From contig JAGAXG010000013.1 in assembly GCA_017941035.1 (NCBI GenBank), forward strand, positions 1-64,000: 64,000 bases of DNA, in the 5' to 3' direction. Position 1 is the stretch's first letter. Each line of letters begins with the position of its first letter. Below are positions 60,098 through 64,000 of this stretch, one piece after another. Both the position numbers and the translations under genes were made by a program. The notes below the pieces were generated by a model that was not told where the DNA came from, searched no databases, and was given only the letters and a program-made list of their open reading frames with translations. Source of the DNA: a bacterium. Its GTDB lineage: Bacteria > Cyanobacteriota > Vampirovibrionia > Gastranaerophilales > Gastranaerophilaceae.

Positions 60098-60126
60098 TTG
60101 AAATAGATTAAATAATATGTTATAAT
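60098..60126 (+). promoter_or_regulatory. Promoter of the pilin-S74 gene
   Basis: TTGAAA (60098-60103), a 17-base spacer, TATAAT (60121-60126) with an extended -10 TGT. A leader of about 27 bases follows with GGATGGAG before the ATG. This is one of the strongest promoters by sequence in the window. Confidence 0.8.
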
Positions 60127-60159: not shown

Positions 60160-61869
60160 ATGTCCATAAAATTTAAATCTGCATTTACATTAGCAGAAAT
60201 AATGATTGTACTACTCGTACTAACAATTTTATTTGCGGGGTTTGCGCCTGTAGTCACAAAAAAAATTCGTTCTAAAAATTCGAATTATTTAGACAGATGG
60301 GTTTGGTCTACTCGAAATTACATGGCCGGACCTATGGACGCGTATTATGACTCGGGCAATAACAATAATTTTGGGGAAGTATTTTTTGGAGTCTCTCCTA
60401 TTGAAGAAAATGATATTCATACAACGTACCTTCCATATTCAAAAATAGTTATACGATCTGGACCTGTGACAACAAATGGAATATTACAGCGTCAACTTCA
60501 GCTAAGATATGGGTATGATTCTACGCCTTATGGAAATTTTCAATCCAGTCTAATTGCAGATACATCTAATATACTTTTTGGAGGGGAGTATCCAAATTTA
60601 CAACTTGCGAATAGAAAAAATAATGACAACTATCCTCAAAATAATTTCGCATTTGGGAAAGATGCATTAAATTCATTGACATACACTGAAGCACAAACTT
60701 CCGGAACACAAGTACAACAAGCAAAAAATAATACCGCAGTTGGTTATAAAGCATTGAATACACTTGTAAAAGGAAGTGATAATGTTTCTATCGGATCTGA
60801 AGCAGGCAGTGATTCAAACAATATATCAAATAATGTAATGATTGGATATCAGGCAGGAAAAAGTACCGGTGGAAATAAAAATGTTTTAATAGGTTATAAT
60901 GCACGATCCGGAGGTAGCAATAATACTTTTATAGGCTATAATGCTGGCAGCAGTTCTGTAGCGGTAAATAATAATGTAGGCATAGGCTATAATACATTAC
61001 ATTCTTTATCAATGGGGGAACACAATATTGCGATAGGAGCACATGCTCTTGAGAATTTAACACAAGGTTCAAATAATGTTGCACTTGGTTACAATGCTTG
61101 CTCGAATTTAACGTCAGGTTCTAATAAAACCTGCTTAGGAGCTAATTCCGGTCCTTCTGTTAATGCAACTTCTGATGATATTGAAAGGACATACATTGGA
61201 GGAAAACCTTTTGGGGATAATAATTTCGGAGGAGATGCTGTACTAGAAATTCATAATCCTAATACTTCAAATGCTAATTTGAATAATAATCCTGATATAA
61301 AATCAAATACAACTACTGTAATAAATGGAAATTTAATAGTAAGAGGTAAAATATTTTTTACTATTGGCAACATTTTATACCCATTTTATTATGATAATAA
61401 CATTTTTGGAACAGACAAGAATGTTTGTGCATACTCACAAACTTCTTATAATTTAAATACAGTTAATTGCCCCGAATTGACAAATATAAGCTCTAGTGAC
61501 AGACGTTTAAAAAATATAAAATCTCGTTTTAACAATGGTTTGAGCGATATCGAAAAAATAAACATATACAATTATAACTACAAAAATGACAAAACGAAAT
61601 CTAAAAATGTAGGTGTTATTGCTCAAGATTTGCAAAAAATATTTCCTAACGCTGTCAGCACAGATACCAACGGTTATTTGCAAATTCGTTGGGATGAAAT
61701 GTTTTTCTCAACTATCAACAGCATTAAAGAAATTAATAAAAAAATAATATTATCTTTTAAAGATTTAATCAATATTGAAAATAAAATTACAAAACTTGAA
61801 AAAGAAAATAAAGAATTAGAAGCGCAAGTTGAAATTCTATCGTCAAAAGTTAAGAATTTAAAGAAATAA
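60160..61869 (+). CDS. Pilin-like protein fused to YadA-type head repeats and S74 chaperone domain
   Basis: A 569-residue protein of unusual build. Residues 1-36 are a type IV pilin/pseudopilin leader and helix (SAFTLAEIMIVLLVLTILF) with the conserved Glu5 after the predicted cut at Ala-Phe. About 185-330 is a run of N-x-x-x-G-x-x-A units (NNTAVGYKAL, NNVMIGYQAG, NNTFIGYNAGS, NNVALGYNA), like YadA heads and phage tail fibres. Residues 446-530 are a Peptidase_S74 domain beginning SDRRLKNI, with VGVIAQDLQKIFPNAV and WDEMFFSTINS, followed by a coiled coil. S74 domains trimerise fibres and then cut themselves off before the Ser. Predicted role: a surface-anchored trimeric adhesin or fibre. Confidence 0.82.
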   Translation: MSIKFKSAFTLAEIMIVLLVLTILFAGFAPVVTKKIRSKNSNYLDRWVWSTRNYMAGPMDAYYDSGNNNNFGEVFFGVSPIEENDIHTTYLPYSKIVIRSGPVTTNGILQRQLQLRYGYDSTPYGNFQSSLIADTSNILFGGEYPNLQLANRKNNDNYPQNNFAFGKDALNSLTYTEAQTSGTQVQQAKNNTAVGYKALNTLVKGSDNVSIGSEAGSDSNNISNNVMIGYQAGKSTGGNKNVLIGYNARSGGSNNTFIGYNAGSSSVAVNNNVGIGYNTLHSLSMGEHNIAIGAHALENLTQGSNNVALGYNACSNLTSGSNKTCLGANSGPSVNATSDDIERTYIGGKPFGDNNFGGDAVLEIHNPNTSNANLNNNPDIKSNTTTVINGNLIVRGKIFFTIGNILYPFYYDNNIFGTDKNVCAYSQTSYNLNTVNCPELTNISSSDRRLKNIKSRFNNGLSDIEKINIYNYNYKNDKTKSKNVGVIAQDLQKIFPNAVSTDTNGYLQIRWDEMFFSTINSIKEINKKIILSFKDLINIENKITKLEKENKELEAQVEILSSKVKNLKK

Positions 61870-61971: not shown

Positions 61972-63246
61972 ATGACAGGAAAGAATTTTTTATTTACTTC
62001 GGAATCAGTTACCGAAGGTCACCCCGACAAAGTTTGCGATCAAATTTCAGATGCAATTTTGGATGAATTTTTAACAAAAGACAATCATTCACGAGTTGCT
62101 GCAGAGACAACAGTTACAACCGGTATGGCACTAGTATGTGGTGAAATTACAGCTGATTGTTATGTTGATATTCCACAAGTAGTACGAAACACAATTAAAA
62201 ATATAGGTTACTGCGGAACAAATTCCGGTGGATTTGATGCTGATACATGCGCTGTTATAACAAGTATTGATGAACAATCATGCGATATAGGCAACGGTGT
62301 TAATAAAGCTCTTGAAGCAAGATGTGAAAATGCTGATACTTCTATTACCGAAACTGAGTCAATCGGAGCAGGAGATCAGGGTATTATGTTTGGTTTTGCT
62401 TGCGATGAAACACCTGAGCTCATGCCTTTACCTATAAGTTTAGCCCACAAGTTATCTTATAGACTCGCACAAATCAGAAAACAAGGACTTGTTAACTATT
62501 TAAGACCAGATGGTAAATCTCAGGTTACAGTTGAATATATTGATGGTAAACCATCAAGAATTCATACAATATTGTTATCTACACAACACGATCCTATAAT
62601 AAACGGTCAAAGTGATAATAGTATTGTTCAAAAAATAATTTCAGAAGATTTAAAAAGACTTGTCATAGACTATATTTTTGAAAATGAAAATATTAAACCT
62701 GATAGTGATACAAAAATTTTAATAAACCCATCAGGTAGATTTGTTATTGGCGGACCTCAGGGAGATTCAGGCTTAACAGGAAGAAAAATCATTGTAGATA
62801 CATATGGCGGATATTCAAGACACGGCGGTGGTGCTTTTTCCGGAAAAGATCCAACAAAAGTTGATCGTTCAGCAGCATATGCTTCACGTTATGTAGCAAA
62901 AAATATTGTAGCTGCAGGTCTTGCTGATAAGTGTGAAATTGAACTTGCATACGCAATTGGTGTTGCAGAGCCGTTATCTATTCTCGTAGATACTTTTGGG
63001 ACTGGTAAAATTGCAGATGAAGAAATAGAAAAACTTGTAAGAAAGAATTTTGATCTAACTCCTGCAGGAATTATCAATAAATTTGATTTGAGAAATCTTC
63101 CTTCTAAAAATGGCGGTAAATTTTATCAACTGCTCGCATCTTATGGACATATGGGAAGAACTGATATTAATGTGCCTTGGGAACAAATAGATAAAGCTCA
63201 AGACTTGAAAAAACAAGCGCTTTCCTGTGGATGCGGTTGCGTATAA
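61972..63246 (+). CDS. metK: S-adenosylmethionine synthetase
   Basis: A 424-residue MetK that makes SAM from methionine and [28 protein letters not shown] is the N-terminal signature, [18 protein letters not shown] the ATP-site loop, and [53 protein letters not shown] the central block. The C-terminal tail SCGCGCV is Cys-rich and unusual; it could bind metal or be redox-sensitive. It lies between two S74 protein genes and has its own leader and terminator. Confidence 0.97.
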
Positions 63247-63263
63247 ATAAAATTTATTTATTA

Positions 63264-63295
63264 AAACAGAGTGTATCAAACACTCTGTTTTTTTA
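63264..63295. terminator. Bidirectional terminator between metK and the S74 gene
   Basis: A 10-bp perfect stem, AAACAGAGTG and its complement, with loop TATCAAA. A T-run follows on the plus strand and an A-run precedes, so both convergent genes can use it. The stop codon of the minus-strand gene lies at its edge. Confidence 0.9.
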
Positions 63296-64000
63296 TTGTA
63301 ATTTTTCTAATTCATCAAGCTCGTTTGATAATTCTATCAATTTATTTTTCAATTTTCGGTTATCATTTTTTAACTTTTCGACACGTTTAATATCTTTTTC
63401 TACCCTTGATATTAAATCATTCGTTTTTTGATTTAATTCCTTAACAGAGTTTATGGAAGCATAAAACATTTCATCCCAACGAATTTTATAATATCCTTTT
63501 TCATCTTTAAAAACAGATTCAGGGAAGACTTTTTTCAAACTTTGAGCAATAACACCAACATGAGGAACTTTCGATTTATCTGCCTTAAATGTGTAATTGT
63601 AAAATTTCAATTTTTCTATATATTTCAAGCCATCTTTGAATTCTGGACCTATATCCTTTAATCTTGCATCACTTGATAAAGTATCATCAGCATCTCTATA
63701 ACTTAAATCCGGACAACAAGAACCATTTTCATCGTTATGAGCTTTGCTAAATTCGGAATTATCATTGTTGTATATGATAGAAAATACAGCGTTATCTTTT
63801 ATATAATCATAAAAATCATAATTACCTGAAGTTAAGGATGTCCAATCATAAGAATCTGCATACTGAGTAGCTGCCAAAGATGAACATATACAAGTTTCAT
63901 GCAAAGAGAATTTCATATGTTTTTGATGATTATTTATATCATCTGAAGAATCTAATCTACGGCTTTTTGCATTTCCATCTTCACCGGCTAGAACAAAAAA
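63293..64000 (-). CDS. S74-domain fibre protein, C-terminal part (cut by window end)
   Basis: The frame stays open from the stop at 63293 to the last base, so the start is outside the window; the Met at 63916 is internal (upstream residues read VLAGEDGNAKSRRLDSSDD). Visible are a Cys-containing stretch (HETCICSS, SCCPDLS), then an S74 domain starting SSDARLKDI with KVPHVGVIAQSLKKVFPESV and YYKIRWDEMFYASINSVKELNQ, then a coiled coil (VEKLKNDNRKLKNKLIELSNEL). It is a clear paralogue of the protein at 60160. Whether it also begins as a pilin cannot be seen. Confidence 0.82.
   Translation of the reverse strand, partial: FFVLAGEDGNAKSRRLDSSDDINNHQKHMKFSLHETCICSSLAATQYADSYDWTSLTSGNYDFYDYIKDNAVFSIIYNNDNSEFSKAHNDENGSCCPDLSYRDADDTLSSDARLKDIGPEFKDGLKYIEKLKFYNYTFKADKSKVPHVGVIAQSLKKVFPESVFKDEKGYYKIRWDEMFYASINSVKELNQKTNDLISRVEKDIKRVEKLKNDNRKLKNKLIELSNELDELEKLQ

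Follow-up and report, generated by a model that had tools for sequence, protein, structure and literature searches.

The joining of a pilin leader to a further module has described precedents: PilB of S. sanguinis is a modular pilin, and the combination of a pilin leader with an S74 domain (IPR012902-IPR030392) belongs to the 15 commonest modular pilins according to Raynaud 2021 (PMC8179133), where GspI-GspJ-GspK, three pilin-type proteins forming the heterotrimeric tip of a pseudopilus, are cited as well. CofB of the ETEC CFA/III pilus and TcpB of V. cholerae are minor pilins of large size that form trimers at the tip of the pilus through their beta-rich distal domains, and they have been modelled with three pilin modules atop the filament (PMC9565799). 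The cleavage mechanism of the S74 chaperone is known from other settings of the same domain, namely MYRF (PMC3742443) and the S74 group of the Bdellovibrio MAT fibres, surface fibres with an S74 end, for which self-cleavage at the Ser has been shown (PMC10769870). In the S74 proteins characterised up to now, the cut is intramolecular and takes place after trimerisation (PMC3742443, PMC10769870).

In the stretch of gastranaerophilalean DNA analysed here (the window, 64,000 nucleotides), an open reading frame of 569 amino acids with an ATG start occupies 60160..61869 (+), in agreement with the original prediction, and its parts are listed in Table 1. We regard its product as probably a modular minor pilin, which combines a pilin leader and helix with a phage-fibre-like trimeric adhesin and its own S74 chaperone; display of such S74-trimerised adhesins on a type 4 filament is the most likely role. 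An Rfam search near the gene returned no RNA element over threshold.

Table 1. Features of the 569-residue protein gene and its neighbours (window positions unless stated otherwise)
Feature	Position	Strand	Basis or remark
Promoter-like site TTGAAA-17-TATAAT, TG ahead of the -10	60098..60126	+	consensus scan, 11/12 matches; a consensus match alone is no evidence of function
Prepilin leader peptide, residues 1-8 (MSIKFKSA)	60160..60183	+	N_methyl match; kept in relatives
Mature alpha1-N transmembrane helix, residues 9-33	60184..60258	+	invariant E13, P30; AF2 helix 11-33
N-terminal linker domain, about residues 34-125	60259..60534	+	alignments; W47, G77, K95, Q110 conserved
YadA-like head, about residues 126-366	60535..61257	+	AF2 and VIA-align; PHROG tail fibre matches
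Stalk and distal segment, residues 367-445 (NGNLIVRG ... NCPEL)	61258..61494	+	conserved anchor motif
S74 intramolecular chaperone and C-terminal coiled coil	61495..61866	+	PF13884; MyRF ICA and phage chaperone matches
SDRRLK, putative catalytic Ser446/Lys451, plus Arg449	61495..61512	+	conserved motif; dyad as in PMC3742443
C-terminal helix 515-568, probable trimeric coiled coil	61702..61863	+	AF2 helix
metK, 424 aa, between paralogue A and C/B	61972..63246	+	named by eye from sequence
Paralogue C, in-window part	63293..64000	-	whole gene 620 aa with leader, head and S74, reaching contig 65155
Paralogue B	contig 65159-66943		outside the window, after paralogue C

The N-terminus carries a class III signal peptide with Glu5 and a hydrophobic alpha1-N, and cleavage by a prepilin peptidase would be expected at A8/F9. 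The N_methyl model (PF07963) matches residues 6-27 with 16.9 bits in the whole-protein scan, below its cut-off of 21.2 bits, and the same leader with 21.8 bits, above it, in the search of the genome's reading frames; 25 of 30 relatives match at E<=0.01. Counting the mature protein from F9 as F1, Glu stands at position 5 (E13) and Pro at position 22 (P30), both invariant in the alignment of the 30 relatives. These are the usual type IV pilin positions, and in pilins both residues are connected with the assembly and packing of the filament. In two AF2 models, residues 34 to about 110 had low confidence (block means of pLDDT 34-67) and no confident fold; the prediction gives the leader and the first helix and no pilin globular domain, so that incorporation into a filament would depend on alpha1-N alone. 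When this genome was searched for copies of the linker domain lacking S74, its three S74 genes alone matched over the full length, the similarity of the other frames being limited to the leader or reaching partway into the domain at best. The 1.8-Mb genome holds 51 N_methyl matches, at least 47 of them over the Pfam cut-off and many scattered singly.

Whereas the AF2 model of the whole protein reached middling confidence (pLDDT 62), modelling of residues 34-367 gave a good head with block means up to 96, and across most of residues 184-262 the pLDDT of the head is 88-96. VIA-align placed this head closest to BoaA (Z 10.6), YadA (10.1), BpaC (9.9), AtaA (9.8) and CbpF (9.7), that is, five trimeric heads at Z 9.5-10.6 as against LpxA-type left-handed helices at 7.7 or lower; an ice-binding protein excepted, the best matches were trimeric YadA-like heads. 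Foldseek against the PDB gave weak E-values, and the fold claim therefore relies on VIA-align and on the agreement of the matches, which confirm the modelled left-handed parallel beta-roll of the YadA/BoaA type. Short repeats of the NNxAIGxxA kind run through the head, and at its end C314 and C325 (61099-61134), nearly invariant across the paralogues, possibly form a disulfide. PHROG tail fibre matches begin near residue 152-171 and extend to the C-terminus, with residues 171-565 aligning to the phage tail fibre family phrog_1980. Leader, linker, head fold and PHROG matches taken together, the protein looks like the distal part of a phage-type fibre to which a pilin leader and a lineage-specific linker have been joined.

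The S74 domain (Pfam PF13884) was found on residues 446-499 with 54.6 bits against a cut-off of 22 (E=1.4e-14), and it opens with SDRRLK at 446-451, in which the Ser/Lys pair, five residues apart, is intact with Arg449 in between; Ser446/Lys451 correspond to the S578/K583 dyad of MYRF (PMC3742443). The pattern SDxRxK is present in every S74 ORF whose motif was read at the Gastranaerophilales loci (159 of 170). It is these conserved catalytic residues that suggest self-cleavage and self-shedding, and a cut before S446 would be expected to free a fragment of 124 amino acids. The 569-aa protein would resemble the characterised S74 proteins in forming trimers. The anatomy forecast in the original prediction, with a pilin-type leader bearing Glu5, an adhesin-like repeat head and an S74 end starting with SDxRLK, was thus borne out in all three parts, and neither a loss of active-site residues nor repeats without a head fold, both looked for as refutations, were found.

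A leader is present on 152 of 153 5'-complete S74 ORFs at loci from Gastranaerophilales contigs, which agrees with the expectation that full-length homologues retain it; these ORFs stem partly from overlapping fetches of near-identical genomes and are not all independent. The lone leaderless one (L118:754-1371 (+), 206 aa) is likely a fragment or frameshifted gene. Among the other large ORFs of those loci, the same text rule found a leader in 21 of 312; 72 5'-complete viral S74 ORFs had none (a single match, false when inspected by eye, was removed), nor did the seven S74 ORFs taken from other orders of Cyanobacteriota. We wrote this text pattern ourselves, it is no curated model, and the scripts used slightly different settings, but the contrast between Gastranaerophilales and the controls far exceeds any difference these settings make. 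With 152/153 set against 0/72 viral and 0/7 other cyanobacterial ORFs, the pairing of leader and S74 is no chance fusion. Almost half of the sampled genomes of the family contain S74 (88 of 191), the majority of the genomes compared being metagenome assemblies. The genome studied here has three S74 genes, all on the window contig and all leader-bearing. In three genomes from related genera (G020, G230, G365), 11 to 12 dispersed S74 copies per genome occur, which suggests an expansion of these fibres; in G230, two similar copies lie 3.2 kb apart.

The second copy at 63293-64000 (-), of which the window shows the distal part and S74 only, and with it the set of three paralogues, had been overlooked in the original prediction. 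The 569-aa protein is paralogue A, flanked by genes reading as valS and metK, and throughout the genus the order is A-metK-C-B, with the one-gene gap between A and C/B kept. The full-length protein tree resolves A, B and C into a clade each, of 17 rows (support 100), 18 rows (100) and 24 rows (99), respectively. Of the genomes sampled in the genus, 15 are S74-positive, and each of these has three or more S74 genes, never one or two; assigned by profile, A, B and C occur exactly once each, in a single block, in 13 of the 15, while the remaining two keep B and C at the locus and have a third gene, sharing the N-terminal domain, on another contig. Three genomes show four S74 matches, the extra copy lying away from the locus where its place is listed. 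One near-complete genome of the same genus (G156) has no S74 gene, and the frame that best matches the N-terminus there, of 840 aa, is alike in the leader only. The A-metK-C-B block was also met on a contig labelled Muribaculaceae (JAMPCZ010000013.1), probably a misbinned or mislabelled Gastranaerophilales contig.

Sets of three are not limited to this genus. A second genus (g25) has three tandem S74 genes in 6/6 genomes, and three co-located paralogues are also found at the locus L116 and in a genome of a sister family (G322); no co-located diverged pairs or quartets were seen among the matches listed. When leader and S74 are used to build the tree, the four sets come out as separate clades (supports 98/95, 100/99, 100/99 and 82/76) with deep divergence among the three paralogues of each; between species, the three members correspond as one-to-one orthologues in both g1 and g25. 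Since each set has its own clade, the sets either arose separately or were homogenised within lineages. We found no earlier description of such sets in four lineages.

Two readings of the sets, which we rate about equal and which are both branches of the proposed S74-trimerised modular pilin, have to be weighed. According to one of them, to which we give close to an even chance, A, B and C trimerise separately into three homotrimeric fibres that recognise differing ligands and are retained side by side as a group of adhesins. Between the conserved anchor motif and S74, A mostly has 49-79, B mostly 83-108 and C 130-226 residues, whereas the head lengths fall in a similar range and do not discriminate between the readings; these paralogue-specific segments, fairly constant in length within each paralogue, are situated just before S74, which is the receptor-binding place in phage fibres, and the 1 to 12 dispersed S74 copies of other genera also speak for separate fibres. 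Homotrimers leave unexplained, however, that the co-located genes number three in each of four lineages and that one or two alone are found in no sampled S74-positive genome of the genus.

Precisely this co-conservation favours the other reading, a heterotrimer with one copy each of A, B and C in one fibre, whose filament tip would begin with three distinct pilin helices, similar to the pseudopilus tip of GspI, GspJ and GspK. As S74 fibres are trimeric in the cases studied, three genes per set, equal in number to the chains, invite such an arrangement, and the 15/15 genomes, the three further lineages and the one-to-one orthology are all consistent with it. Against it, the unequal segments between anchor motif and S74 are awkward for a triple beta-helix unless they are inserted loops, and the coiled coils (mean charge +3.9 in A, +4.2 in B and +3.3 in C) show no charge complementarity among the three paralogues. 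Single or dispersed copies occur in other genera, so that homotrimers must work there; we found no S74 heterotrimer in the open-access literature searched, and concerted evolution could mimic independent triplication. We therefore consider a heterotrimer possible, in a tentative sense. The further-reaching proposal of an obligate A-B-C S74 heterotrimer at a type 4 filament tip, which would have evolved independently in at least four Gastranaerophilales lineages through triplication of a homotrimer gene, appears doubtful to us.

For assembly we propose the following course. The leader would insert the chain into the inner membrane, leaving the remainder in the periplasm, where S74 and coiled coil would gather three chains and template the stalk; after folding, Ser446/Lys451 would cut ahead of Ser446 and free the 124 residues, and prepilin peptidase would cleave after Ala8. 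Following the model for TcpB, the three first helices could then enter a type 4 filament at its tip, and this filament would drive the fibre through the single secretin, so that the YadA-like head and the distal tip are exposed as an adhesin. Unless shed beforehand, a bulky S74 trimer could obstruct the way through the secretin. We infer the trimer, both cleavages, the display on a pilus and the adhesion; the filament role is suggested by the leader together with machinery genes elsewhere in the genome, where a PilB-type T2SSE ATPase (C30:43344-44516) with an adjoining PilC-like gene, a secretin (C30:45406-45915) and a prepilin peptidase (C39:22774-23025) are encoded, the neighbourhood of 60160..61869 having no pilin-machinery genes. 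At L254:12841-19933 and L255:3-2274, the secretin, ATPase and PilC-like genes adjoin genes reading like fliR, fliQ, fliP and fliO.

The leader might instead serve as a membrane anchor or export signal only, with the trimer facing the periplasm from the inner membrane and never entering a filament. No pilin globular domain is predicted, and 51 N_methyl matches in so small a genome mean a very wide use of such leaders, both of which fit an anchor; the invariance of Glu5 and Pro22, and a YadA-like adhesin head that would be expected to work outside the cell, make this an unlikely explanation. A reading in which S74 acts as a peptidase effector shown on pili, suggested for the same domain pair in PMC8179133, strikes us as very improbable, given the intramolecular cut after trimerisation in the characterised proteins (PMC3742443, PMC10769870) and a coiled coil and YadA-like head that indicate a trimeric fibre. 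An origin as a prophage tail fibre gene, or as an artefact of assembly or annotation, which the resemblance of head and S74 to tail fibre families might bring to mind, has a negligible chance, as the viral relatives are without the leader, and was ruled out by the valS-metK setting and a block conserved genus-wide in separate assemblies.

A modular minor pilin of the kind proposed would bring together, within a single protein family from an uncultured gut lineage, the well-studied machineries of pilus tips and of phage-fibre chaperones, and the reading of S74 in the catalogue of modular pilins would be corrected from peptidase effector to folding helper. Should A, B and C indeed combine in a heterotrimer, no S74 heterotrimer known to us would precede it, and it would be a natural case of a repeated change from symmetric to mixed trimers.

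Among the closest known systems, the modular pilins IPR012902-IPR030392 share both signature domains and their order; the three-part anatomy of the original prediction stands, but is less new than supposed, as leader plus S74 was catalogued in 2021. In the available part of that catalogue (PMC8179133), S74 is called a predicted peptidase, head, trimer and self-release are not mentioned, and the Gastranaerophilales distribution and the three-gene set are absent. How a trimer fits into a pilus, which had been raised as a puzzle, is partly answered by the trimeric tips of CofB and TcpB (PMC9565799). These two are one-gene homotrimers with a pilin domain 1 and with neither S74 nor YadA-like head; like PilB, they possess a pilin globular domain, whereas none is predicted past the first helix of the 569-aa protein. 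GspI-GspJ-GspK share only the number three and have no fibre, head or S74. In the Bdellovibrio MAT proteins, a signal peptide leads into another kind of beta-rich domain, about 130 aa long, and the word prepilin is absent from their description (PMC10769870). The S74 fibres and spikes of phages (K1F endosialidase, T5 pb1, GA-1 neck appendage) match in the fold of the chaperone, but begin with virion-binding domains, the pilin leader being found in 0/72 viral relatives. YadA, BoaA, BpaC, AtaA and CbpF have the same head fold; Pfam scans of the 569-aa protein and 29 relatives detected no type Vc anchor barrel, the C-terminus being S74 and coiled coil. Where trimeric autotransporters are held by a beta-barrel anchor, the 569-aa protein has a pilin helix as its anchor and S74 as its cap.
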